Source of the DNA: a virus
IMG/VR virus record: IMGVR_UViG_3300015360_000063
Coordinates: 1-50,238 of that record
DNA length: 50,238 nt
Reading direction: 5' to 3' (one strand)
Every line of letters begins with the position of its first letter. The stretch's first letter is position 1. The notes beneath the pieces are model-generated. The model had not been told where the DNA came from and searched no databases. It saw only the letters and a list, made by a program, of their open reading frames with translations. The position numbers were made by a program, and so were the translations under genes. Positions 31,549-46,289 of the stretch are shown one piece after another.

Positions 31549-33417
31549 ATGGCAGTTAGCTCTAGATTTATACAAGTACACCCTGACGCATTAATCGAAT
31601 GGGTATGGGACGACCAGTTCAACTACGAAGACGAATACAGTGTCATACGCGATATTCAGAACAATACGACGTCGTTCACGTTCAGTAAGAATGCCAATGA
31701 CCCGTTGAACTACAATAAGATACCTCAGCAGTTGTATCTTATAGATTCGCTAATAAATAAATACGGCATCGCCAATCCGGAAACAAAGACGTTCTTGCAA
31801 GAGAGCAAATATGCAAATAACCAACCCAGCAAATTTGATAAAGTAAAAATATGGTTTCCAATACATTATACATTTCCTAACAGCACGGGGTTTTTCGTGA
31901 AATTGTCAGGATTGAATTATGAAAATTCAGTGCCATATAATTTCGCAAATTATTTTCTAGACATAACCCAGGGCAGCGAACTGTCTAAGATTTACAACGA
32001 ATCACAACCGTTTAGACTCAATGGTAGGCTTTGGGGAAAATCTGTGACTATATATGTGCCGTCGCTTTACGATGAATCCAGACAGCGAGTCAACAACGCA
32101 CCAAGACTGGGTACGATAAACTACAACCTGACGTCTGGCGTCCTGGGACTGTCTCAGACAAGTCCGATATTCTTGGATTTCAGGTTTCTGACAACAAAAT
32201 CTACCGTATTGGGAGAGACCACATACCTAGCTACACCACCGCTCATAACTAGCATACCACAGGCGCCGGAGTATAATAATCTCGGTGTATCTATAGATGC
32301 TGCAAAAGATGGTGACTATTACCTAATAAACGGTATTTATAACGGCAGTATTGGAGAATTCGATATGTTCATGGAAGCATTGGCACAGACTGGCAAGCGC
32401 AGTTACATATTGTATACGGTTACGCCGATTGAAGAGAACTTGCCACAGGACCCTCTGGATATTTACGTCTATCAAGACTTTTTTAAGCAGATAAGCTACA
32501 GGCCGATATTCAAATTTGCAAACACTTCGGCAGCAATACGGGTAGACATGAAGATTATAAATGCAGTAGATTCGTCAGTTGTTACAAAGTCTTCGGAAAT
32601 CGCACTAATAGGCAACAGTGTCGCAAAATACGGAAAATACGTCACGTCAATCAATGTGAGTGGCGCTATTAAACCAAAATTATATAATTCCAAACCAGAT
32701 ACGCTTGTATTGCCGTCTATGGAATTATTGAACTCACACTTGAAGCGTAAAGTAAATAATGTCAAGACCGAGATAAAATACATACCTTACCCGGTATTGA
32801 CCAATGCAGTAAATATTGTTGCACAGGACGTCACTAAACCAAACAGAGACGGTACGTTTTTTGGATTCGGTGACTTGAAACTAATACTAACACCTTTTGA
32901 CAATATCTTTAAAATGAAAGTTGCTAAGCAAGTGTCAAGTACGACATTTGAGCCATTTGTCTTTCCTAGCAATAACTCAATAATGCAATTAATATTCAAG
33001 TCTGCGACTACTGAATTGAGAGTACCGTTATACATGGAGTCTAACGAGGTGCGTTTAGATGGCGGCATTCTTGTATTCAAGATTACCGCAACCAGCCAAC
33101 CACAACTGAAAAAAATATATCAGACTAATAAGAATTTTTACATCACAATAACTACAAACGGTGTCGAAACTGTTGTCTATGACGGAGTGTTTGCGTTGTT
33201 GTCTGAATCACCGAGGGTTCCTAAAAGTACATCAGTCTCGGGTGCATTTCCACAATTAGCCATTAGGCCGAACCTGAACATATCGGCGTTGGATACAGTC
33301 TTAAACAGCGTTGAAAATCTACCTGCAAATCTAAACGTCATAAATAAAGGTGACAGTATGATAACACAGATTGTAAACACTCCACTTAATGCGCTGCAAT
33401 TTAAAAGATTATTATAA
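31549..33417 (+). CDS. Probable tail/baseplate protein, 622 aa
   Basis: Beta-rich throughout with many aromatic residues and few charged helices, typical of virion surface or baseplate proteins. No specific family recognised. It ends in NALQFKRLL and is followed three bases later by the tube-like gene, in an operon behind a late-type promoter. The context supports a tail or baseplate role; identity with a particular T4 gp is not claimed. Confidence 0.65.
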   Translation: MAVSSRFIQVHPDALIEWVWDDQFNYEDEYSVIRDIQNNTTSFTFSKNANDPLNYNKIPQQLYLIDSLINKYGIANPETKTFLQESKYANNQPSKFDKVKIWFPIHYTFPNSTGFFVKLSGLNYENSVPYNFANYFLDITQGSELSKIYNESQPFRLNGRLWGKSVTIYVPSLYDESRQRVNNAPRLGTINYNLTSGVLGLSQTSPIFLDFRFLTTKSTVLGETTYLATPPLITSIPQAPEYNNLGVSIDAAKDGDYYLINGIYNGSIGEFDMFMEALAQTGKRSYILYTVTPIEENLPQDPLDIYVYQDFFKQISYRPIFKFANTSAAIRVDMKIINAVDSSVVTKSSEIALIGNSVAKYGKYVTSINVSGAIKPKLYNSKPDTLVLPSMELLNSHLKRKVNNVKTEIKYIPYPVLTNAVNIVAQDVTKPNRDGTFFGFGDLKLILTPFDNIFKMKVAKQVSSTTFEPFVFPSNNSIMQLIFKSATTELRVPLYMESNEVRLDGGILVFKITATSQPQLKKIYQTNKNFYITITTNGVETVVYDGVFALLSESPRVPKSTSVSGAFPQLAIRPNLNISALDTVLNSVENLPANLNVINKGDSMITQIVNTPLNALQFKRLL

Positions 33418-33420
33418 GCT

Positions 33421-34029
33421 ATGAATCTTAGTACACTTAACAACCAATTTCACTACAACTTACCGCTGGATTTTATACCGCCGGGGTATGAGGACCGCTA
33501 CATGAAACTGTTGGGCGACAAGCGTAAATTGTATTCATCTGTATTAGACTATCTCAATTCAACTATACAGAGCATATCTATGCCAGGCGTTACTTTTCCT
33601 CTTGTTTCGAACCCACAGATATTACACACAAAAAAAATAAAATGGAAGACCGTCGGTAACATATATGATATGTTTGACGAGACCGTTACCGTTAAATTTC
33701 TGAACGTCGACGGAAACATGAATTACATAATATTTATGGACATACTCGTGAATCATTATCTGAGAGTGGATAAGTCTTATGACGCACCTTTGATAGTGAC
33801 TGTAATAGACCAAAACAGGAATGCATTATACCATATACAGTTCAGGAGTGTCATTTGGACTGGCATAGGTCCTAACGAATTTGCGTTCAATGATCAGATA
33901 GTACAGACCAAAAACTTCACCATGACGTTCGAATATAATTTCATAGATTTTGAATACGTCGCAGACAAAGTCGACATCATCACAAAAAACGGATATAACA
34001 ATTTGACTAACCTACAACCGCCTAACTAA
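33421..34029 (+). CDS. Tail tube-type protein (T4 gp19/gp54-like fold, tentative)
   Basis: 202 residues. A helix with LDYLNSTIQSISMPGV followed by beta strands, a long helix (YIIFMDILVNHYLRV) and paired strands ending in FTMTFEYNFIDFEY matches the tube-fold layout shared by contractile tail tube and tube-initiator proteins. The S-x-S-M-P-G-V element is typical of tube N-terminal strands. Stop overlaps the start of the next gene by one base. Confidence 0.5.
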   Translation: MNLSTLNNQFHYNLPLDFIPPGYEDRYMKLLGDKRKLYSSVLDYLNSTIQSISMPGVTFPLVSNPQILHTKKIKWKTVGNIYDMFDETVTVKFLNVDGNMNYIIFMDILVNHYLRVDKSYDAPLIVTVIDQNRNALYHIQFRSVIWTGIGPNEFAFNDQIVQTKNFTMTFEYNFIDFEYVADKVDIITKNGYNNLTNLQPPN

Positions 34030-34370
34030 TGGATGCTTATAAGTTTAACAGAAATTTCATAACAATAATAAAGATTTTCAACAGGCACCCAAACATGCTG
34101 CTCAATTTTTTGACTAAAAACGGAGCGTTCGCCGAGACATTCAAAAAGAAATTAGCCAGGGCTATACTGAAGGATAAGCCACACTTCACAAACGTGGAGA
34201 CTATGATAGAATATTACGTACATTTAATGGACACCGAAGAGCCTGATGCCGAAGACATGTCGCAGGTGTGGAATAACAAGTTATATCTTGCCATTTCAGA
34301 ACAACGTTTCGAGGATGCCGTCGGGATAAGAGATTACATGAACAAACGAGGATATAAAATTTTGATTTGA
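34029..34370 (+). CDS. Small protein with UVR-like C-terminal motif
   Basis: 113 residues, helical. The C-terminal KLYLAISEQRFEDAVGIRDYM fits the UVR helical-hairpin pattern (x-A-(L/I)-x4-F/Y-E-x-A-x-x-(L/I)-R-D), a protein-protein contact element in UvrB, UvrC and McsA. Starts on the last base of the tube-like gene. Role unknown. Confidence 0.65.
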   Translation: MDAYKFNRNFITIIKIFNRHPNMLLNFLTKNGAFAETFKKKLARAILKDKPHFTNVETMIEYYVHLMDTEEPDAEDMSQVWNNKLYLAISEQRFEDAVGIRDYMNKRGYKILI

Positions 34371-34392
34371 TTTTTAAACAAACAATAATACC

Positions 34393-34403
34393 ACATATAT
34401 AAT
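34393..34403 (+). promoter_or_regulatory. Late-type promoter motif
   Basis: ACATATATAAT about 51 bases before the S1-like gene. Confidence 0.4.
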
Positions 34404-34454
34404 AACGTATAACAATTCACAATCATTCAGTATTAACGAAAAAAATAAAAAACT

Positions 34455-35549
34455 ATGACCATTCAAAATGTAGGAAACGCGTCGGCATCGGCATTAGATT
34501 TCGATTTTGCGACAAAAGACGTCTACAAAGAAACAAACCCGTTCGGACAAGCATTAATGGAGTTCGACGCACGCACGGGCATTAAGCCCGACATAAAAGT
34601 CGGTGTAAAAGTGACTGGAACATTAATCTCCAAGAGCGATAAATACGCTTTCGTAGATTTCAAAGGAAAGACATCTGTATGCATTGATGTGACGTCACAG
34701 GAATCGTTGTTACTGGCAAAAATCGAAGTTGGCTCAGAAATCACAGTACTGATAACCTCAGTCACTGACAAAGACACATTCGAAATAGGCGGTTCATTAT
34801 ATCAATTAAAGATGATTGAGATGACTGACTTCTTGGACAGCGTTTATGACAGACGCGGGGGGCTTACCGGTATTCCATCGGAACTTAACCATGCCGGTTA
34901 TAACGTAACCATTAACATCGAGGACCAACAGTTGAGTCTGTTCATGCCACACTTATTGACTGATGTCAATAAATTACCTGACCCTAGCTCAATCATAGGA
35001 ACTGAAATTGAATTCTGTCTAGAACGGGTGAGAAAAGACGGCAATACGTCTTATATTGCATCCAGAAAGGCATTTCTATTGAACATGGCAGTCAAAGAAA
35101 AGCGCAACCTGAAGAAAGGTGGACAATACGACGGATTTGTGACGGGTTGTACTGATTTTGCCGTATTCGTGCAGTTTAATAAGTGTCTTACCGGAATGAT
35201 TCACAAGTCGAATCTTACAGAACAAGCTGTCGCGTTATTGCCAAATATCCCAGCAGGAACGACAATTGAGTTTTATGTCAAAGACATAATGAAAGACAAA
35301 TTGTTCTTGACACAGGTAATCAGAGATTCTTTATGGGATTCCATAGCAATCAACGACGTATTGCCAGGAACAATTTCGAGCATAAAAGATTTCGGAGTTA
35401 TGGTCGATTTAGATTACGAGACTAAAGGCCTATTACACAAGTCAGTGTTACCAAATCCGGTCAATTCGTATAATAAAGGCGACAAAGTCAATGTCATTGT
35501 CACAAACGTGAACAAAAACAACAGACAGATAACTCTAGCTCTAAAATAA
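34455..35549 (+). CDS. S1-domain RNA-binding protein, ribosomal protein S1-like
   Basis: 364 residues made of consecutive OB/S1-type units. Unit 1 is at about 49-118 (GVKVTGTLISKSDKYAFVDF). A degenerate unit lies at about 140-215. The clearest two are at about 222-290 (YDGFVTGCTDFAVFVQF..GMIHKS) and about 297-364 (LPGTISSIKDFGVMVDLD..GLLHKS, ending ITLALK). The G-x-(V/I)-x3-x-x-(F/D)-(F/G)-(A/V)-F-V core and the G-(M/L)-(I/L)-H-K-S turn are diagnostic. S1 recruits mRNAs lacking strong Shine-Dalgarno signals to the 30S subunit. A phage copy could bias translation to phage messages or act in transcription antitermination. The gene ends one base before the next gene starts. Confidence 0.85.
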   Translation: MTIQNVGNASASALDFDFATKDVYKETNPFGQALMEFDARTGIKPDIKVGVKVTGTLISKSDKYAFVDFKGKTSVCIDVTSQESLLLAKIEVGSEITVLITSVTDKDTFEIGGSLYQLKMIEMTDFLDSVYDRRGGLTGIPSELNHAGYNVTINIEDQQLSLFMPHLLTDVNKLPDPSSIIGTEIEFCLERVRKDGNTSYIASRKAFLLNMAVKEKRNLKKGGQYDGFVTGCTDFAVFVQFNKCLTGMIHKSNLTEQAVALLPNIPAGTTIEFYVKDIMKDKLFLTQVIRDSLWDSIAINDVLPGTISSIKDFGVMVDLDYETKGLLHKSVLPNPVNSYNKGDKVNVIVTNVNKNNRQITLALK

Positions 35550-35993
35550 ATGAAGAGCGAGATAATTGAGCTGCTACAAGAAGTAGCAACAGAAGAGGGT
35601 GGTGTTTTCACCACCCTTTTTGGTTCAGAAGAATCTGAAGTGCACCACACGCTGAACATAAACTGGATATTCAACAAGACCGAGATGAAAGAAAGTCTGT
35701 TCATAGTACTTGAGCACATAATATCGCAAGTGCTGCAGTCTTATAATGTCAGTAAATATGAGCCTACAAAATATTACTTTGAGGGAAAGTATAAGATGAT
35801 ACTTTTCGAGGACGGGCCTACAGTAAACCGGTTGTTGCCCATAAACTATGAAATCAATGACCCTAATATAAAATTTGCAGACCTTGAGAATTACTTGGAT
35901 GATATTGACATCACGGATAATGGCCAGCACATATATTTCAAGTGGTCTTTTCCAATCTATAAAATAAAACAGGATTCATTAAATACCTTTTAA
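35550..35993 (+). CDS. Uncharacterised protein, 147 aa, with a terminator hairpin in its 5' end
   Basis: 147 residues, alpha-beta, no recognised motif. The ATG directly follows the S1-like stop. Codons ~16-24 contain a GC-rich perfect hairpin plus T-run (35596-35621) that looks exactly like an intrinsic terminator, so expression may depend on read-through or on ribosomes disrupting the hairpin. A second terminator follows the gene. Confidence 0.75.
   Translation: MKSEIIELLQEVATEEGGVFTTLFGSEESEVHHTLNINWIFNKTEMKESLFIVLEHIISQVLQSYNVSKYEPTKYYFEGKYKMILFEDGPTVNRLLPINYEINDPNIKFADLENYLDDIDITDNGQHIYFKWSFPIYKIKQDSLNTF
35596..35621 (+). terminator. Intragenic terminator-like hairpin
   Basis: 9-bp GC-rich stem AGGGTGGTG (35596-35604) with CACCACCCT (35609-35617), loop TTTT and five T residues (35617-35621). 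It lies 47 bases after the S1-like stop but inside the next coding sequence. Confidence 0.75.
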
Positions 35994-36010: not shown

Positions 36011-36048
36011 AGAAAACCTGCAAATTAATTTGTAGGTTTTCTATTTTT
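36011..36048 (+). terminator. Intrinsic terminator
   Basis: 14-bp stem (36011-36024 with 36029-36042, one G-T pair), loop TTAA, T-rich tail. Directly followed by a late-type promoter box. Confidence 0.88.
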
Positions 36049-36057
36049 ATATATAAT
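36045..36057 (+). promoter_or_regulatory. Late-type promoter motif
   Basis: TTTTATATATAAT overlapping the most upstream ATG (36056) of the terminase paralogue, which argues that translation really begins at 36086. Confidence 0.5.
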
Positions 36058-36085
36058 GTATACAAATAAATCAAAATATCGACAT

Positions 36086-36985
36086 ATGAGAATTTTTAAA
36101 ACAGAAGACATAAACAGGATAATTGAAAAAATTAATCTGGGACATAAAATGTCTAGGAAAAATAATATTTTTTTCAGACACCAAGAAGGCACGTTAGATG
36201 ACGACATTTCTGTGTTATTATCGCAAGACGAGCTTATAGAATATGGCAAGTGTGCCAATGATATTTGTTATTTTATTGAGTCATGCTGTGGTGTGAAATT
36301 GAGACAGTATCAGAAAGAATGGATAGACAATTTCATGAACAACAGGTTCATGATATATTGCACATCGAGACAGACCGGGTATTCCGCCGTCATGGCCGCG
36401 GTGTATTTGCACTACATGATATTCAATAAAAATAAAACCATATTAGTCGTATCGAATAAATGCGCGTCTGCCGTAGAATTTATGCACAAACTGTTTAAAC
36501 ATTATCAGAGAATACCATATTGGATTAAACCTGGCATTGTCACAAAAAATAATAAAAATCTTAAATTTAATAACGGTAACCAAATACGCATGCGGTCCGG
36601 AATAAAAAGTAAACCCACCGAGTTTAGTATTGATTTGTTATCATATATGGAGTTTTCGCATATCCCACAGTCAACACCAGATATGCAATATAACAACACG
36701 TTAGTGCCTGAACTATGTGCAAACACAGAATCTAAGATATGTATACAATCACAACCGGCCGGTTTTGACAGCTTTTATCAATTGATTAACGACTCAGAAC
36801 GTAAACCTAACGACCCAATGAAGAATATCTACAAGACTGTAAAGACATATTGGTGGGAAGTAGACGGGAGAGATGACACATGGAGACAACGTGAGATAAA
36901 CATTATCGGCGCCGACGCATTTGCGCGGGAATATGACCTACAGTTTGTATCGAAAGCCGTTGTACAGACGACAATAAAAATATAA
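36086..36985 (+). CDS. Degenerate terminase ATPase paralogue (P-loop-dead)
   Basis: 299 residues from the ATG at 36086 (309 from 36056, which overlaps the promoter box). It aligns along its whole length with the ATPase domain of the adjacent terminase, including FxKCAxDIxYF, R-(Q/D)-Y-Q, the long helix after the P-loop, KPG(I/L)-x-(N)-x-(N)-x-K and a shared block after it. The catalytic motifs are altered: Walker A SRQTGYS instead of SRQTGKT (Lys and Thr lost), Walker B LLSYMEFSHIP instead of FLYMDEFAHIP (Asp lost), and coupling motif SQPAG instead of STPNG. There is no nuclease domain. The intact frame suggests a retained, non-hydrolysing role, for example as a terminase partner. This is inference. 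Confidence 0.8.
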   Translation: MRIFKTEDINRIIEKINLGHKMSRKNNIFFRHQEGTLDDDISVLLSQDELIEYGKCANDICYFIESCCGVKLRQYQKEWIDNFMNNRFMIYCTSRQTGYSAVMAAVYLHYMIFNKNKTILVVSNKCASAVEFMHKLFKHYQRIPYWIKPGIVTKNNKNLKFNNGNQIRMRSGIKSKPTEFSIDLLSYMEFSHIPQSTPDMQYNNTLVPELCANTESKICIQSQPAGFDSFYQLINDSERKPNDPMKNIYKTVKTYWWEVDGRDDTWRQREINIIGADAFAREYDLQFVSKAVVQTTIKI

Positions 36986-36994
36986 CTAACTGAA

Positions 36995-37513
36995 ATGGGA
37001 AGACATAAGAAAGAGAAAGACCCGATAGAGAAACAGTTTGTATTCACAACAGACGCTGTAAATGACATACGGGAAAAACAGTCGCAAGGCTTTGACATAC
37101 CTAGGTACATGAACCCGTGGTTCAAAAAAGAAATGGGCGTGAGAAGAACCGGTTGTGTATTCGGGTGGACCCAAGAAGAAATAGACGAGTTCACGAAATG
37201 TGCATTAGACATACACTATTTCGCGAACACATACTGTCACATAAAATCCGAAGACGGCCAGATCAGGCAGATGAAATTACGGGATTACCAATATAAAGTG
37301 CTTGACGCGTACACTAAAAACAGATTCACGTTGAACATGTCGTCAAGGCAAACAGGCAAGTGTATAGGTCCTATAACCAACGTGTCGTGTATGATAAATA
37401 ATGCGGTCGTAGAACTACCCATGTTCAAATTGCTGTTTGAGTACAGAGAAAACAAAACATTTTACGACTATATAAAATACCCGATATATTGGGTGTTATG
37501 GAAATTAAACTAA
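36995..37513 (+). CDS. Terminase large subunit N-terminal extein plus N-intein fragment
   Basis: 172 residues. Residues 1-122 are the start of a T4 gp17-like terminase, ending in MSSRQTGK, the first part of the Walker A P-loop. Residue 123 (Cys, codon at 37361) begins an intein: CIGPITNVS matches intein block A with the nucleophilic Cys1. The intein sequence runs 50 residues, then stops before block B. The rest of the intein and terminase is encoded by the gene at 37699. Protein trans-splicing would join Lys122 to Thr of the second chain and restore SRQTGKT. The split between blocks A and B is that of the atypical split inteins with a short N-fragment, such as AceL-TerL. Confidence 0.85.
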   Translation: MGRHKKEKDPIEKQFVFTTDAVNDIREKQSQGFDIPRYMNPWFKKEMGVRRTGCVFGWTQEEIDEFTKCALDIHYFANTYCHIKSEDGQIRQMKLRDYQYKVLDAYTKNRFTLNMSSRQTGKCIGPITNVSCMINNAVVELPMFKLLFEYRENKTFYDYIKYPIYWVLWKLN

Positions 37514-37698: not shown

Positions 37699-39933
37699 AT
37701 GAAAAAAATCATAAATAGAATTCTATTTGACATAATTGAAAAGATAGAGTCATATCAGTACAGAAATACCACTTTAGACCAAGACTGTGTATTAAAAAAA
37801 ACAAAAAACATTACATTCACTGACAAAAAAGATTTGTACGTGGATTCGCCGGAAGGCTGGGTTAAGGTGACTGAAATAAACGAGACACAACCATATAAAA
37901 TATGGTTTATGAAAACAGAAAATGGCAAAGAACTGTTTTGCGCCGATAACCATATCGTGTTCGATAGCTTGGGTCAAGAAATATTAGTTAAAGAATTAAG
38001 TGTAGGCCAACACATAATCACTCGTGACGGATTCGAAAAGATTACTGTTATGTATGTGTACAATACTTCCAATAGTATGATAGATTTGACCGTAGGCGGC
38101 AAAGAAATGAGGTATTACACAAATGATATTTTGAGTCATAACACGATATGCGCGGCAATAACACTACTACATTATTCTATTTTTAATACAAATAAAGGTA
38201 TAATGGTTGTAGCGAATAAGGGCGAGACGGTTATAGAGATTTTGGACAAGATTAAAAATATATACAAGTTACTGCCATTCTTTCTTAAGCCGGGGCTTAT
38301 AAACTGGAACACCAAATCCATAGTTTTTGACAACGGCTGTCGTATAAAATCACAGGCACGTTCAAAAGAACCGGCGATCGGTTTTACGATAGACTTTCTC
38401 TATATGGACGAGTTTGCTCACATTCCGAGGAGTATAATAAACCACTATTACAAGGCCGTTATACCCACAGTGTCGTCCATCAAGAATTCTAAGGTGGTCA
38501 TAACGTCGACACCAAACGGCGCCAATCTGTTCAAAGATTTGGTCATGGGCGCGTCGTTGCCTAATGGGCATGCAGACAAGAATATGTACAGCCTGATAAA
38601 GGTGCTGTGGTATCAAGTACCAGACGGCAAATTTGAAGACGGTACGACCGGGACAAGATTCGACGCACGGCTTTACCCATTGGCATTTGAAATGGCGACA
38701 CACAAGTTCAGTGTCGAGAAGCTCGTGAAACACCTACAAGGTCTCAATTTCAAGGTAGCTATAGAACAGGAGACTACTGATACTGGCAATAAAGATTTCG
38801 TACGTATATTATACAAGGACGGCGTCACAGATGTCGAATCGATCAAGAAGATGGATTTAGACGGACTGAATGTTGCGAAGATTTGTACTATAACGAACTG
38901 GAAAGAGCAGGAGACTAAACTGATCGGTGGCGAAGAGGCATTCAACCAGGAATACGGATGCCAGTTCATTGCCGGGTCTAAGCGGGTGTTGAGCGCGCCA
39001 AAGGCGAAGGAGCTCGAAGCGCGTACCGAAGTTTATAAGACCAGAGAGATTGAGATTCTGACAAAGAGACTGCGATTCACGTATAACGAGCTGCGTTGGG
39101 CACCTGATTATATAGAGCACGAGAGAAACAACTACTACTGGGTTTCCATGATGGATGTGTCAGAGGGTTTGGGACTGGATGACTCGGTAATCAATCTGTT
39201 CAGGCTGATGGTGAGGCCCAAATCTTGGTTGTTGGAAAACAAGATCAAGACGATGTACGACGCGTTCTACCTAAAACAGACGGGCATATACAATTTTAAC
39301 CGATTAGACCACAAGAAGGAACTGCCTGAGTTATTTTACATGTTACATTTCGAGTACTTAAATCCCGAACGCGTTAAATCCGTTGTAGAATACAACGGGC
39401 CGGGTTCCACGTTCATAGTGGCGCTCAACCAGGTGTTTGACGGAAACAACGATTTCGGTAGTCACGTGCTAGTCAGGTATAAACATAGGACGGATGACAA
39501 CACAAAAAAAATGGGTCTTAAGGTCAGCCGTAACAAAAAAGAGCTGGTGAAATCGTACATAGACTGTATCGAGACGGACATGCTGTATGTAGACGAGAAT
39601 ATCACGCTGGACCAGATGGATAATTTCATAAAGGTTGACACCAGGAGCGGTGACGTGACGTATCGTGCTGACGCAGGACACGACGATATAGTTATGACGT
39701 TAGTCGGCGGCGCCACATATTTTGATACCCAGGATTATAAAAATATGTGTTTTAACTATTATAACGAGCTTTCTGGAGAGTACCAGGGGTTAATTGACAA
39801 GGCATTAGACCTGGAACACAATCCTAATGCTATATCGTATAAGAGCATGAGCGCGGCTCTGGCCAAAAGTAAGAAATCAATAAGCCGTACAAACAGATTT
39901 TCTGGTGGACGAGGCCGTTTTATGGGGAAATAA
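37699..39933 (+). CDS. C-intein fragment plus terminase large subunit C-terminal extein
   Basis: 744 residues. Residues 1-148 are the C-intein: block B-like GKELFCADNHIVFD, block F-like MIDLTVGGKEMRYYTND and block G ILSHN with the terminal His-Asn, followed by Thr149 (codon 38143) as the +1 residue. The remaining 596 residues are the terminase: Walker B FLYMDEFAHIP (about 233), coupling motif STPNG, and the RNase H-like nuclease with MMDVSEG (about 485), VVEYNGPG and GHDDIVMT (about 661). Relative to the paralogue upstream, an extra ~80 residues are inserted before the ATPase end. With the N-piece the spliced terminase would be 718 residues. It packages DNA into the prohead at the portal. Confidence 0.88.
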   Translation: MKKIINRILFDIIEKIESYQYRNTTLDQDCVLKKTKNITFTDKKDLYVDSPEGWVKVTEINETQPYKIWFMKTENGKELFCADNHIVFDSLGQEILVKELSVGQHIITRDGFEKITVMYVYNTSNSMIDLTVGGKEMRYYTNDILSHNTICAAITLLHYSIFNTNKGIMVVANKGETVIEILDKIKNIYKLLPFFLKPGLINWNTKSIVFDNGCRIKSQARSKEPAIGFTIDFLYMDEFAHIPRSIINHYYKAVIPTVSSIKNSKVVITSTPNGANLFKDLVMGASLPNGHADKNMYSLIKVLWYQVPDGKFEDGTTGTRFDARLYPLAFEMATHKFSVEKLVKHLQGLNFKVAIEQETTDTGNKDFVRILYKDGVTDVESIKKMDLDGLNVAKICTITNWKEQETKLIGGEEAFNQEYGCQFIAGSKRVLSAPKAKELEARTEVYKTREIEILTKRLRFTYNELRWAPDYIEHERNNYYWVSMMDVSEGLGLDDSVINLFRLMVRPKSWLLENKIKTMYDAFYLKQTGIYNFNRLDHKKELPELFYMLHFEYLNPERVKSVVEYNGPGSTFIVALNQVFDGNNDFGSHVLVRYKHRTDDNTKKMGLKVSRNKKELVKSYIDCIETDMLYVDENITLDQMDNFIKVDTRSGDVTYRADAGHDDIVMTLVGGATYFDTQDYKNMCFNYYNELSGEYQGLIDKALDLEHNPNAISYKSMSAALAKSKKSISRTNRFSGGRGRFMGK

Positions 39934-39987: not shown

Positions 39988-42900
39988 ATGAGTATTAACT
40001 TATCAGACTATAATCGTGCTGGCGTTTTTATCGAAGAGAGAAATAATTCAGTAATAGATAGACCAGCAGCCCAAGAAGCTGTAGTCAATTTTATACCCGG
40101 GTTTTCTAGAAAAGGCACGGTATTTAATCGTCCCGTTCTGATCAAAACCAAATCCGATAGAACGACATATTTCGGAGAAATTGATCGTTTTCTTGAAAAG
40201 AAGAGTTCATATTTTCACAGAACTATAGAAATCGCATTACAGACAGCGCCAGTATGGGCATTAAATATACTAAAGACTACGTCTTTGGACAAACTAAATT
40301 ATGCTTCGGTTTCGTTATCTGCACAATATGATAACACCCCAGTAGCACAACGTCAGTATGACGATTTCTTCAACAAGTCGGGTTTCTGGCAGCGTGACAC
40401 TGAATCGTTTTTATTCTTTGCGCGTAACTCACAACGCATGTTACATTTCACCAATGTTAGTGACAAGAAAATAACAATTTTCATGTTCAAATCTAGCATT
40501 CCTGGATACGACATCACCGCAGAGTTATGGTACGGCGGTAGAGAGAAAGTTCCAACATGGATGAGCCCGTCAGATTTCATATCTGATTATATGGTTAGAG
40601 TTGTTGCTGTAAATGGCGACTGGTCAAACTATGTGACACTGGCGTCTGACCCTAACTGGAGCAAGTATTTCGCTTCTAGTGGTTTGAGAAAGAATAAAGT
40701 TGACGATTTCATTCGTGACAAAGGCGTTACCAAATTAGGTGACTACACTGGTTCATTGATTCCATTCTTCAGAGACAATAAGAACAACAATGTCTTCATC
40801 GAGACTCTGGTAAACTTAGAAACTGACCGTACGGGATTATTTGCAGCGTTCGACATCGACAACGTTGAAACAGATTTTACTAGTGGTAACATTGACATAA
40901 TTGGTCAAACACTTGTAGATATAGATAAACCTAAAATCAATTTCATGTCTTATCAGGACACAATCGAAGAAACTGATTTCTACGATAACATGCCATTAGA
41001 TACTCGTGGCAACGTAATCGGTATCAGCAATATACTTACACGTACCACAAACAATACGAACGGTTTATTGTCAGGTATGGGCGTGGCTCTGGGCGGTTCA
41101 TTCTCTACTACTGCTACACCATCGCTTACAGTGACTGGCGGTACTGCCAATATCAATAACCTCACATTGACTGTTCCGACATTGGCGATTAACTTATTGC
41201 CACTGGTTGCTCCAGCATTAGGCGTAAATTACCGCGTAGCCGCGATTTATGTCGACGCGACTAGTGTGATTCAAGTTGCTACAGGCACTGTGATAAATAT
41301 CGCAGGACCATTACTGACAGAAGCAAATGCCGTTTTAGGCGGATTAACATATCCTGCATCGATGTCAAACAATGCTATAGTGCTAGGATATGTATTCAGC
41401 ACAGTAGATAACAGTAGCGTACACTCTAATGCCTATGTGTCGGTTGCCCTAGGAATAGGAGCTGGCTCTTATGTGCCTTTGTCTATTGGTCTTGCGGGTC
41501 TTGACATTGTTGTTGCTAATACGGCAACTAACATCTTGGATATAACATTCAATCAGACGGCGACAGCGACAAAAGCAAATTACAGAGCGTGGAGAAGAGT
41601 TTTATTCTTTAACGAATTGGTAACTAAGTACGTTCTTACTAATTCTGTGATAATCGATTCATTAGGAGCTAAAATAGATTTATCTGCTGCAATGTGGACT
41701 GACAATTACTCTGCTGGTGCAGGCGACAAGAACATCGTCATCACAACGACAAGTGTTGACATCAAGACACAGTCTTATGCTTCTGGAAAATTCGTGTTCT
41801 TCTACAATGACAATGAATTCGTAATGAATACAACAGGTCTTGAGACTAGAAGCAATGCTTCAGGTACTGCAAACTACGGTATTGTTGCTAAGAATTCAGA
41901 GATGTACCAAGATTTCTATAACGGTATGATTAACACTGGTGATCACTTCTTCGTAAAGAAGGCTGTGACCACATCGATGAAGTTTGTAAACTACACAAAT
42001 GTTTCTAACCCGACAAGCGTTGGAAGTTGGATTATAATGAACTCGGCTGATTCCCTAGCATTAGGAATAGGTGCCGGTTCAAACAATTTTCGCTTGTTGA
42101 TACAGTCACACCCGGTTAACGCCGGAGACTTCTTGTTAACTACCGGTTACGGTTACGACGCTGTCCCAGTGGTCGGTACACCGGAATTCGGTTTACAGGG
42201 CGATGGATTTTTAGCTGTCGGTGAGGTCGCATATCAAGTAAACAATCTAGTATCTACATACGTGACAACCCAGACTATAGATGCATTCGATTACAACGCT
42301 AAGGCGTACTTGAAAATGTATTTCGTTGGTGCCATCATGAAAGTAGAGTTCATGGCGGATAACACGTTAATTACCCCATTCACTGTACCTGGCGGTTTAT
42401 TGTCAATCAATACAACAATCAATGTATACTCTGGAGAAGCAGCTTACGAACAGACACTCGAGATTGAACAGCACGCGGCATACACGATAACAGACACTAA
42501 GGTGTTAATCGATTTAGTTCGTTACCCTGAAGTTAAAGTCGGCGATTATGTTAAGGCGTTCATCGACTCTGGTTCTTTACAACCTGGGCAGTTTCCTAAG
42601 AAATTCTCGAGAATCATCAAGAAAACACCATGGTCCGGAAACGTGGCGCACAACGTACAATATGCAGAGATTACATTGGACATCAAATTGGCCATTCAGT
42701 TATACGGTTCTGACATGCAGACTACACGCTATACTAAAATCGAAGATTACATCGATACTTACAAGGCGATCTCTCTGGGCGGTTTTGCGGTACAGTCTGC
42801 TTCAATTCCTGATGGAACGGAAGCTCGTCAATCTGAGATATTAGATATAATCGGAAAAAACACTGCATTGTATTATGCCATCACTAACAAGAATAAATTT

Positions 42901-43818
42901 AACTTCCGTTATTTAATCGATAGTTTCGGTTTGGGCTTAACGGAGTTCTCTAAGCAACAATTAGCTGACATAACTGGTAAACGTAAGAACTGTATTGGTT
43001 TCTTAAATATGCCGAGCGTCAAATACTTTAAGTCTTCTTCAAACCCATCGTTCATAAATACAGACGGTACATTAAACTTAGAATATGTCAGATTGGGCGG
43101 TAATCCAGGAGCAAATCCGGCATTCGTATACAGCTTCGCACAGGGTGCAGGTAAAGACGACGGTCGTGATACCACCGGTTACTTCTTCCCATATGTGACT
43201 GTTAACGATGACGGAAGACCATTGATATTCCCACCAGCGTCATATTGTGCTAATACATACATGAGAAAATTAAATTCTCCTATCGCCGGTATTTACAACT
43301 GGACGGTTGCTGCTGGTACTGAAGACGGGAAAATCTTAGGTATAGCAAATGTTGAGATGGACTTCACTGAGAAAGATTTGGAGAACATGTATACAATGGG
43401 CGCGAATCCATTAATGTATGCTAAGAACAAAGGTTTCTACATAGAGACTGAGTGGACTGCATTGACATCGCCCTTGTCTGCTTTATCATACTTACACGTC
43501 AGAGAAATCTTAATTGATCTAGAGAACGAGTTATATGCAATGTTGTTGAAATACCAATGGAAATTCAACACGCCTGCTATACGTGCTAAAATCAAGCGTG
43601 AGGCTGATGAAATCTGTCAGAGATACGTTGACCGTTCTGCCTTATTCGCATACAACAACGTAATCGACGAGACTAACAACACACCGACACTAATAGATAA
43701 CCAGTTCGGTCTATTGGAGACTTATATTGAGCCGGTTAAATCAATGGGTATAATTGTTAACGTGATTAATGTTATGACGACTGGTGGAATTGCCGGTTCT
43801 ACGGGATTTGGCGTTTAA
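39988..43818 (+). CDS. Tail sheath protein, T4 gp18-like, unusually large
   Basis: 1276 residues, about twice T4 gp18 (659). The N-terminus (YNRAGVFIEERNNSVI, FIPGFSRKGTVFNRPVLI) is the conserved sheath start. The C-terminus (AMLLKYQWKFNTPAIRAKIKREAD through ETYIEPVKSMGIIVNVI) is the sheath core and extended C-arm. The extra length is in the middle (roughly residues 300-900), beta-rich, glycine/threonine-rich and low in charge, most likely surface domains on the outside of the tail. The sheath contracts to drive the tube into the cell. It follows the terminase as gp18 follows gp17 in T4. Confidence 0.88.
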   Translation: MSINLSDYNRAGVFIEERNNSVIDRPAAQEAVVNFIPGFSRKGTVFNRPVLIKTKSDRTTYFGEIDRFLEKKSSYFHRTIEIALQTAPVWALNILKTTSLDKLNYASVSLSAQYDNTPVAQRQYDDFFNKSGFWQRDTESFLFFARNSQRMLHFTNVSDKKITIFMFKSSIPGYDITAELWYGGREKVPTWMSPSDFISDYMVRVVAVNGDWSNYVTLASDPNWSKYFASSGLRKNKVDDFIRDKGVTKLGDYTGSLIPFFRDNKNNNVFIETLVNLETDRTGLFAAFDIDNVETDFTSGNIDIIGQTLVDIDKPKINFMSYQDTIEETDFYDNMPLDTRGNVIGISNILTRTTNNTNGLLSGMGVALGGSFSTTATPSLTVTGGTANINNLTLTVPTLAINLLPLVAPALGVNYRVAAIYVDATSVIQVATGTVINIAGPLLTEANAVLGGLTYPASMSNNAIVLGYVFSTVDNSSVHSNAYVSVALGIGAGSYVPLSIGLAGLDIVVANTATNILDITFNQTATATKANYRAWRRVLFFNELVTKYVLTNSVIIDSLGAKIDLSAAMWTDNYSAGAGDKNIVITTTSVDIKTQSYASGKFVFFYNDNEFVMNTTGLETRSNASGTANYGIVAKNSEMYQDFYNGMINTGDHFFVKKAVTTSMKFVNYTNVSNPTSVGSWIIMNSADSLALGIGAGSNNFRLLIQSHPVNAGDFLLTTGYGYDAVPVVGTPEFGLQGDGFLAVGEVAYQVNNLVSTYVTTQTIDAFDYNAKAYLKMYFVGAIMKVEFMADNTLITPFTVPGGLLSINTTINVYSGEAAYEQTLEIEQHAAYTITDTKVLIDLVRYPEVKVGDYVKAFIDSGSLQPGQFPKKFSRIIKKTPWSGNVAHNVQYAEITLDIKLAIQLYGSDMQTTRYTKIEDYIDTYKAISLGGFAVQSASIPDGTEARQSEILDIIGKNTALYYAITNKNKFNFRYLIDSFGLGLTEFSKQQLADITGKRKNCIGFLNMPSVKYFKSSSNPSFINTDGTLNLEYVRLGGNPGANPAFVYSFAQGAGKDDGRDTTGYFFPYVTVNDDGRPLIFPPASYCANTYMRKLNSPIAGIYNWTVAAGTEDGKILGIANVEMDFTEKDLENMYTMGANPLMYAKNKGFYIETEWTALTSPLSALSYLHVREILIDLENELYAMLLKYQWKFNTPAIRAKIKREADEICQRYVDRSALFAYNNVIDETNNTPTLIDNQFGLLETYIEPVKSMGIIVNVINVMTTGGIAGSTGFGV

Positions 43819-45100: not shown

Positions 45101-45143
45101 ACCATTTATATGACCGATGTACACTTATGTTTAGTCTTGGTTG

Positions 45144-45229
45144 GGGTAGAGACGAGACTCGAACTCGCATGACTTTTTACGGTCTCCGGGTCACAACCGG
45201 GCTGGATTCCATTACCAGATACACTACCC
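45144..45229 (-). tRNA. tRNA-His (GTG), long variable arm
   Basis: About 86 nt. Anticodon loop TTGTGAC on a CCGG stem, T-arm GCGAG-TTCGAGT-CTCGT, acceptor GGGTAGTG/CTCTACCC with one T-T mismatch, and an encoded G-1 paired with C73, a tRNA-His hallmark. Unusual 16-nt variable region (GAC..GTC stem possible), unlike normal tRNA-His. Confidence 0.65.
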
Positions 45230-45246
45230 GTGTATGGGTCATTTTT

Positions 45247-45322
45247 GGGTGTAGAGTGGGACTCGAACCCACGGCATCTCGTACCACAAACGAGCGCTCT
45301 GCCAAACTGAGCTATAAACACC
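45247..45322 (-). tRNA. tRNA-His (GTG)
   Basis: Anticodon arm CTCGT-TTGTGGT-ACGAG, D-arm GCTC..GAGC, T-arm GTGGG-TTCGAGT-CCCAC, normal 5-nt variable loop, G-1 opposite C73. Acceptor has two mismatches. Confidence 0.85.
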
Positions 45323-45345
45323 ATATTACTCATTCTAAGAACTTT

Positions 45346-45428
45346 TGTTACTGTAACAGGACTCGAACCTACGTTGCAGAATTAACTCGACAGATTAACA
45401 ATCTGGACCGTTTGGGCACTACGGCAAC
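45346..45428 (-). tRNA. tRNA-Asn (GTT), long variable arm
   Basis: About 83 nt. Anticodon loop TTGTTAA with CAGA/TCTG stem, T-arm GTAGG-TTCGAGT-CCTGT, and a ~17-nt variable region with a GTT/AAC stem. The acceptor GTTGCCG/CAGTAAC appears extended by two pairs. The D-arm is hard to fold, so ends are approximate. Confidence 0.55.
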
Positions 45429-45440
45429 ACTGAAATGTTG

Positions 45441-45512
45441 CGGATATGGATGGGTTCGAACCAACGACCTACCGGTTAACAGCCGGTTGCTCTACCACTG
45501 AGCTACATATCC
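45441..45512 (-). tRNA. tRNA-Asn (GTT)
   Basis: Canonical cloverleaf: acceptor GGATATG/CATATCC with discriminator G, D-arm GCTC..GAGC, anticodon arm ACCGG-CTGTTAA-CCGGT, and a normal short variable loop. Confidence 0.92.
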
Positions 45513-45592
45513 TTATGATTTAATTCTATATTATCGCTATTATCACTATTATCGCTGTCTTCCATGACGTTTTCGTTTTTATTTATTTTTTG

Positions 45593-45663
45593 TGACCCCG
45601 GATGGAATCGGACCATCATCTTGCGGTTAAAAGCCGCAAGCTCTACCATTGAGCTACGAAGTC
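45593..45663 (-). tRNA. tRNA-Lys (TTT)
   Basis: Anticodon arm TGCGG-CTTTTAA-CCGCA, T-arm GATGG-TCCGATT-CCATC, acceptor GACTTCG/CGGGGTC (two G-T pairs), discriminator A. Confidence 0.92.
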
Positions 45664-45680
45664 ATTACATTATTTCTTCG

Positions 45681-45752
45681 TGCACCCAGAAGGACTCGAA
45701 CCTTCAGCCTTCCGGTTAAGAGCCGGAAGCTCTACCATTGAGCTATAAGTGC
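45681..45752 (-). tRNA. tRNA-Lys (CTT)
   Basis: Anticodon arm TCCGG-CTCTTAA-CCGGA, T-arm GAAGG-TTCGAGT-CCTTC, acceptor GCACTTA/TGGGTGC, discriminator A. Closely similar to the Lys(TTT) gene beside it, so probably a duplication. Confidence 0.92.
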
Positions 45753-45836
45753 ATAATCTTATTAGAGACCTGACCCACAGTTTATGGTTCAAGTCTTATC
45801 GTTTTCGTTTCACAGGTTTCATCTTTTTCATAATAT

Positions 45837-46202
45837 TTATGGTTTTAATCCGTTATTATATCTTTCAATTCGATAATTATTTCTTATTGTATTTTTATTT
45901 TTACCTTTATTTTTACCACAATATGTTGGTTGTAATGCATCACAGTTTTTACATACCAATTGGCAGTTATTCAATCTCCAATTGTCTGAATTTCCATCAA
46001 TATGGTCAAATGTCAAGGGTATTAATTGATTTAACCAGTGTGTATTTTTACATATTTTATATTTATGTCCTTGTATCTCAATTAAAAACTGTTTTGCTCT
46101 TCTTACTTGATACACTGCATTTGTTTTTAAATTTAAACAATCAAAAAATACTTCTTCTCGTAATACTTTTTCTTTATACTCTTCTTTTATTGGTATACTC
46201 AT
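45837..46202 (-). CDS. HNH endonuclease inserted in the tRNA cluster
   Basis: 121 residues. TFDHIDGNSDNWRLNN followed by CQLVCKNCDALQPTYCGKNKGK is the HNH core with the usual H-N pairs and a CxxC zinc-binding element. This type is common as free-standing homing nucleases in phages. It lies between tRNA-Lys(CTT) and tRNA-Trp, with different, more A/T-rich composition, as expected for a mobile gene. Confidence 0.85.
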   Translation of the reverse strand: MSIPIKEEYKEKVLREEVFFDCLNLKTNAVYQVRRAKQFLIEIQGHKYKICKNTHWLNQLIPLTFDHIDGNSDNWRLNNCQLVCKNCDALQPTYCGKNKGKNKNTIRNNYRIERYNNGLKP

Positions 46203-46218
46203 TCATTTTTATTTTTAG

Positions 46219-46289
46219 CACTTAGACTAGGATTCGAACCCAGAACGATGAGGTTGGAGCTCATCATGTTACCGTTACACTATCTAAGT
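46219..46289 (-). tRNA. tRNA-Trp (CCA)
   Basis: Perfect acceptor ACTTAGA/TCTAAGT with discriminator G, anticodon arm ATGAG-CTCCAAC-CTCAT, T-arm CTGGG-TTCGAAT-CCTAG (one mismatch). Confidence 0.9.

Follow-up and report, generated by a model that had tools for sequence, protein, structure and literature searches.

The S1 gene and its neighbours in the window

The window, by which we mean the whole stretch of viral DNA analysed (a 50,238-base fragment, IMG/VR record IMGVR_UViG_3300015360_000063), carries an intact ORF at positions 34455–35549 of the plus strand that runs from ATG to TAA and encodes 364 amino acids. The gene and its immediate surroundings comprise the following features:

31549–33417, plus strand: putative virion protein, 622 aa, a conserved neighbour with synteny in 25 loci
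33421–34029, plus strand: tail tube/terminator-like protein, 202 aa, a conserved neighbour (synteny)
34029–34370, plus strand: UVR-type-motif protein, 113 aa, all-helical
34371–34454, plus strand: leader of the S1 gene, 84 nt, A-rich, without a Shine–Dalgarno (SD) core
34455–35549, plus strand: phage S1 gene, 364 aa, colinear with bS1 domains 1–4, domains 5–6 absent
35550–35993, plus strand: 147-aa protein directly after S1 with zero gap, from a family found in 4 loci
36011–36042, plus strand: terminator-like hairpin of 14 pairs

The hairpin would end a run of genes extending from 31549 to 35993; seven hairpins were found against 3.7 expected in shuffled sequences, each of them individually weak. 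Searches of Pfam and PHROGs gave no family match for the 622-aa protein. For the 202-aa protein, a relative in locus L004 matches a PHROG tail tube family (E = 1.2e-4), and T4 gp3 is matched weakly at the profile level (E = 0.0039).

Several features were noted further downstream in the window. At 36056–36985 lies a 309-aa paralogue of the terminase ATPase domain in which the Walker A lysine is replaced (SRQTGYS), just before the real large terminase (36995–37513 and 37699–39933). The latter looks split by a split intein inside its Walker A motif: the first ORF ends SSRQTGK/CIGPITNVS... and the next starts with an intein C-part ending SHN/TICAAITLLHY, the splice sites (slashes) being placed by eye. 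An unusually long tail sheath of 1276 aa follows at 39988–43818, its best sheath-family match starting only at about residue 894, and six tRNA genes, two His (GTG), one Asn, two Lys (TTT, CTT) and one Trp, are found on the minus strand at 45143–46289.

Domain anatomy of the phage S1 protein

An S1-domain HMM search, a check proposed in an earlier note made from the sequence alone, matched Pfam S1 (PF00575) with E = 2.4e-20 over the whole 364-aa protein, two stretches being significant by themselves. Against PDB sequences, phmmer aligned the protein with E. coli bS1 (E = 2.7e-27) over bS1 residues 24–347, that is, domains 1–4. An AlphaFold2 (AF2) model built from a 56-sequence family alignment (mean pLDDT 87.6, pTM 0.69) has four OB barrels, at residues ∼52–114, 136–203, 224–286 and 302–363, and an N-terminal helix at 29–41; considering the pTM, the arrangement of the domains is less sure than the domains themselves. 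The predicted parts map onto the gene as follows:

34539–34577, plus strand: N-terminal helix, residues 29–41 (AF2), located where the uS2-stacking helix of bS1 lies
34608–34796, plus strand: OB domain 1, residues 52–114 (AF2), predicted ribosome-docking type
34668–34670, plus strand: codon of Lys72 within OB domain 1, equivalent of bS1 Lys43
34860–35063, plus strand: OB domain 2, residues 136–203 (AF2), predicted docking type, aromatic pocket Y149/F163 retained
35124–35312, plus strand: OB domain 3, residues 224–286 (Pfam/AF2), predicted RNA-contact residues F235, F238, H250 and K282
35358–35543, plus strand: OB domain 4, residues 302–363 (Pfam/AF2), RNA-contact set partly eroded, M316 replacing Phe

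The earlier note had read at least three, probably four S1/OB units with diagnostic turns. The model bears out four units, but the turn G-(M/L)-(I/L)-H-K-S occurs only in units 3 (GMIHKS) and 4 (GLLHKS); units 1 and 2 are without it, the same as bS1 domains 1 and 2. A degenerate F-D-W-type motif (LDF, residues 14–16) precedes the N-terminal helix.

In Foldseek, the top match of the model was 9gut_B, the bS1 of the 30S mRNA delivery complex (E = 4.1e-22). With VIA, the whole model superposed on 9gut_B with Z = 15.1 over 321 residues (rmsd 10.1) and its domains 1–3 on 9gux_B with Z = 12.9 over 241 residues (rmsd 5.4), while the single-domain rows of VIA barely probed the model outside residues 276–364. 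Three phage proteins in BFVD named S1 or S1-motif also match the model, and no PHROGs family was found for the protein. Four domains are predicted in the window S1 and three in Lak S1, compared with six in the bS1 of Bacteroidota hosts. Six domains are not a strict criterion for bS1, and four-domain bS1 proteins occur in some other bacteria. A generic OB fold is ruled out by the colinear homology to bS1 over four domains, and from its sequence we firmly assign the protein as bS1-derived, in line with the earlier note, which had called it ribosomal protein S1-like.

A single clade of phage S1 proteins

In INPHARED, the window S1 matched 27 of 50,697 records: six huge-phage assemblies (462–735 kb), 15 Lak records and six others, the last including CAKLQH020000011 (L091), MT835478 (L009) and MT839544 (L092). 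No cultured relative was found in INPHARED, where the relatives are metagenome assemblies. L009, L091 and also L090 (MT835643) are labelled phage in INPHARED; they were dropped as bacterial by their neighbouring genes and carry host bS1. L092 has an IspH-like fusion context. The closest named relatives are LR756504, LR745206, LR756501, LR756502, LR756500 and the Lak genomes; we take the LR records to be assemblies of the Al-Shayeb et al. 2020 study.

A scan of IMG/VR with the single window protein as query returned no relative, whereas a profile scan gave at least 537 tblastn-positive stretches. From these at least 537, the best 80 were picked by similarity to Mahaphage S1 (L010–L089), and each has an intact S1 ORF of 357–430 aa. 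Adding the window and the seven named records brings the set to 88 loci and 70 distinct proteins. A scan of genome contigs added one relative, on L093, a phage-like contig of 254 kb from the bin of a Bacteroidetes MAG; it has the look of a huge phage, with GroEL-like, ribonucleotide reductase and gp32-like proteins around the S1 gene. Second S1 matches in the Mahaphages were set aside as RNase R-like rather than further phage S1 proteins; in the huge phages L148, L149 and L150, such RNase R-like proteins with an S1 domain are encoded at a distance from the S1 gene. The phage S1 is not rare in this phage group. The rarity asserted in the earlier note finds no support in the number of IMG/VR stretches, and S1 in SD-poor huge phages had already been published (Al-Shayeb 2020, PMC7162821).

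A quick tree with SH-aLRT support only was computed from 80 rows, 43 of phage type (62 of the 70 proteins kept as representatives by script, of which 19 were dropped) and 37 of bacterial type (from 55 including PhiMa05, with 3 excluded and 15 dropped by hand). The phage proteins, those of Lak and the window included, form one clade (SH-aLRT 100) whose stem measures 2.39 changes per column, which rules out a recent capture from a host. Since the clade attaches among bS1 sequences without resolution, where long branches meet, we name no donor from the tree. The FDW motif, which 23 of the 70 phage proteins and 25 of 54 bacterial rows share and whose sampled carriers all fall in one subclade, gives a hint of a Bacteroidia-type donor; in the tree, 'Bacteroidia' and 'other' are our own labels, assigned from motif and identity. 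Pairwise dN/dS within the family is mostly 0.06–0.25, indicating purifying selection (one near-identical pair at ∼1 is uninformative).

Considering that Lak phages grow on Prevotella, that L093 was binned with a Bacteroidetes MAG, and that the largest Mahaphages have Bacteroidetes as predicted hosts (Al-Shayeb 2020, PMC7162821), the hosts of the phage group are probably Bacteroidota. Hosts of this kind have an S1 of their own: all 99 genomes sampled from the phylum to which G001, the genome of a Bacteroidetes MAG, belongs have bS1, nearly always at full length.

Association of the S1 gene with tail genes

A tail-module-type gene lies upstream of S1 on the same strand in 79 of the 88 loci, with a median gap of 125 nt. 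The nine exceptions are six loci with too little upstream sequence, two Lak genomes, whose S1 genes sit outside the tail block, and one locus (L015) with such genes on the opposite strand. Three settings were distinguished. In setting (a), represented by 28 loci including the window, S1 stands beside the tail tube/terminator-like protein. In setting (b), also 28 loci, it follows large putative virion proteins that match no named family and whose tail nature is suggested by their size and position. In setting (c), 23 loci, S1 lies between a gp5-like hub (hub/gp5 spike) upstream and amidoligase, gp25 and gp6 genes downstream; in one locus of this lineage (L062:9204–10496), an Amidoligase_2-like gene (PF12224, E = 2.5e-6) is directly 3' of S1, inside the baseplate block. 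Profile comparisons among the neighbours of lineages a, b and c found no homology, so descent of the three tail blocks from one block is without support, although the UVR-type-motif family, which precedes S1 in 35 of the 88 loci, all in settings (a) and (b), links the first two.

Given its location in a tail/virion gene block, S1 would be co-expressed late with the tail genes. The same location could mean that the product is itself a virion or tail-assembly protein, with S1/OB domains reused structurally or as a chaperone, or that S1 is packaged and injected for early infection. Tail-module-type genes next to S1 on its own strand (79 of 88 loci), with genes on both sides in lineage c, are consistent with this, and packaging was raised as a possibility for phage bS21 (Chen 2022, PMC9723584). 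Late timing alone, however, fits the gene position equally well, Lak keeps the family outside the tail block, and a purely structural role needs neither the uS2-pocket lysine nor the domain-3 RNA set, each of which is kept in at least 66 of the 70 proteins (see below). We therefore think a virion role unlikely.

Docking and RNA-contact residues across the family

In E. coli, bS1 is fixed to uS2 by its N-terminal helix and by Lys43 of domain 1, and bS21 acts as a clamp holding bS1 on the 30S (D'Urso 2023, PMC10123108). Lys43 is the lysine that enters the uS2 zinc pocket, and its equivalent in the window protein is Lys72. Among the 70 phage proteins this column holds K in 50 and R in 18 (K/R in 68 of 70), compared with K in 51 of 51 bS1 sequences (25/25 and 26/26) and P in both non-ribosomal S1 paralogues, the only two negative controls. 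The Phe5/Phe9 columns, which in bS1 stack on uS2, are hydrophobic or Tyr in most phages, and two alignments disagree on the matching residues of the window protein. In the OB2 pocket, the Phe130 equivalent and an aromatic at Phe120 are present in 70 of 70 phage proteins, whereas the bacterial Lys117 is lost, with P in 54 of 70.

The domain-3 residues F235, F238, H250 and K282 we take to be equivalents of RNA-contacting residues in E. coli bS1. At the columns of Y205, F208, H219 and R254, the family has an aromatic in 68 of 70, F in 70 of 70, H in 66 of 70 and K/R in 66 of 70. Domain 4 is less well kept: the second aromatic (F293) is Phe in only 20 of 70 and L in 47 of 70, and H305 is His in 48 of 70. 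From its sequences, the family reads as one in which the docking half and one strong RNA-binding domain are kept and one RNA-binding domain is weakened. In the E. coli initiation complexes tested by Duval 2013 (PMC3858243), domains 1–3 were essential and sufficient, domain 4 stimulated and domains 5–6 were dispensable; the predicted phage domains 1–4 (1–3 in Lak) match this sufficient core.

A truncated S1 might instead serve as a decoy or inhibitor that occupies uS2, blocks host bS1 and shuts off host translation. Domains 5–6 are indeed missing and domain 4 is eroded, and translation fell to ∼5% when E. coli ribosomes carried viral bS21 (Mizuno 2019). We consider a decoy very unlikely: the domain-3 RNA site is nearly invariant, E. 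coli bS1 without domains 5–6 supports growth (Duval 2013, PMC3858243), and location in a late block speaks against early shut-off. Quite unlikely, in our estimate, is a role off the ribosome as an RNA chaperone or an RNA-decay or replication factor, much as host S1 acts with Qbeta replicase or T4 RegB. Although bS1 has such roles (PMC13157829, PMC10123108) and, of five distinct non-Lak huge-phage records, three also encode RNase R-like proteins, these genes lie away from S1. The phage proteins moreover retain domains 1–2 with their docking residues, and in E. coli this pair of domains chiefly binds ribosomes, RNA binding being undetectable (PMC10123108).

Shine–Dalgarno sites, leaders and bS21

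The earlier note's observation that genes here lack SD sequences was confirmed. Of the 37 window ORFs that start with ATG and reach at least 120 aa, none has an SD core (0.01 in shuffled sequences), and the leaders, A/U-rich in the earlier note, are A-rich, with 53% A and 6% G. With the same script, the SD fraction was 0.62 of 29 ORFs for T4, 0.25 of 28 for crAss001 and 0.01–0.05 for the huge-phage, Lak and IMG/VR relatives. From the relatives together with the missing SD sites, we infer a Bacteroidota host for the window phage.

In Bacteroidia ribosomes the anti-SD is hidden in a pocket of bS21, bS18 and bS6, and in Flavobacterium the gain in initiation from added bS1, seen for one SD-less mRNA, was no more than roughly twofold (McNutt 2023, PMC9976891). 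Since Bacteroidota ribosomes ignore SD sequences, their absence alone is no proof that a phage S1 promotes initiation.

A phage bS21 is encoded in four of the seven named records and in 11 of 22 further contigs, many of which are fragments; none was found in the 50-kb window fragment. Proximity of the S1 and S21 genes (Fisher p = 0.013, 15 records; 11 on opposite strands) is suggestive only, since the records are related and the S1 positions on contigs were approximated.

Discussion

We consider it likely that the window gene encodes a late-expressed minimal bS1 that docks on the 30S subunit of a Bacteroidota host and favours the SD-less, A-rich mRNAs of the phage. Such a minimal bS1 would consist of the N-terminal docking segment and OB domains 1–4. 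The gene would go back to a single, ancient uptake of a bacterial rpsA and would since have been passed down as a phage gene within a large group of phages. Its product would be made late, together with the tail proteins, and would dock on uS2 at the mRNA exit channel of the host 30S, replacing host bS1 or acting alongside it, so that domains 3–4 may capture SD-less, A-rich phage leaders for virion production. Phage S1 and phage bS21, the latter encoded in many of these phages, may jointly rebuild the 30S platform.

What the sequence supports is the homology and order of domains 1–4, the loss of domains 5–6, the kept lysine and domain-3 residues, purifying selection and the tail/virion location. 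Late timing, uS2 docking, ribosome occupancy and mRNA preference are what we infer; displacement of host S1 and a preference for phage messages, both raised in the earlier note, would likewise belong to this reading. The minimal-bS1 reading is weakened by the loss of OB2 Lys117 and the erosion of domain-4 RNA residues in most members, by the degenerate N-terminal motif of the window protein, by the lack of bS21 in the fragment and by the location of Lak S1 outside the tail block. In addition, SD absence is expected in Bacteroidota anyway, and the bS1 effect in Flavobacterium was about twofold (PMC9976891).

Compared with a Bacteroidota bS1 (L090, 597 aa, six S1 domains), the phage S1 has the same N-terminal segment and order of domains 1–4, the uS2-docking lysine, the domain-3 RNA-contact residues and, in some members, the FDW N-terminal motif. 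It differs in ending after domain 4, in an identity of ∼30% or less, in forming its own deep clade, in the loss of OB2 Lys117 and in two phage-only motifs, FMPxxLAGxNKL and LTGMIHK.

S1 proteins with up to six domains were described in a few huge phages by Al-Shayeb 2020 (PMC7162821) and tied to poor SD usage; they were proposed to act in initiation, whether on the ribosome or away from it, and a 'true' rpS1 was considered hard to confirm. The Mahaphage and Lak S1 proteins of that study belong to the same family and clade as the window S1 and likewise come from SD-poor genomes. The idea linking phage S1 to SD-poor genomes had thus been published before, and the earlier note re-derived it. Unlike the present work, the main-text passages of that paper on S1 make no mention of S1 gene position or docking residues. 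Phage bS21 of Bacteroidota phages (Chen 2022, PMC9723584) resembles phage S1 as a 30S platform protein with its gene in a structural-gene region, and a late takeover of translation was proposed for it; it is a different protein, and S1 terms are absent from the main text of that paper. The bS1 of the Microcystis jumbo phage PhiMa05/MaAM05 (PMC13157829; MW495066) also has a four-domain length (359 aa) and comes from a jumbo phage, but its gene lies in an ispH-rpsA-rplU-rpmA cluster and not beside tail genes. In the 80-row tree it falls outside the phage S1 clade, on a long, unsure branch, and is apparently a separate acquisition. In the main texts of open-licence papers, no report of tail-gene linkage or docking-residue conservation of phage S1 was found; as far as that literature was searched, the family size, single origin, steady tie to tail genes and retained docking lysine are new.

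A broader picture can be offered only tentatively. An ancient group of Bacteroidota phages might build a late, phage-specialised 30S platform, in which a minimal bS1, with or without bS21, replaces the host pair at the exit channel and the ribosomes select SD-less, A-rich virion mRNAs; with S1 wired into the tail operon, both would be switched on together. Such remodelling of the Bacteroidota mRNA-entry platform is testable, since both a specific residue (Lys72) and a specific partner (bS21) can be named.

S1 domains were set aside by Mizuno 2019 for 'functional ambiguity'. With the order of domains 1–4 and the uS2-docking lysine taken together, a ribosomal phage S1 can be recognised by a simple check of its sequence, which the present family passes. 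These naturally trimmed S1 proteins also offer a tool for asking which part of S1 is needed for SD-less initiation. If our reading is true, the phage may use S1 to steer host ribosomes to its own late messages.
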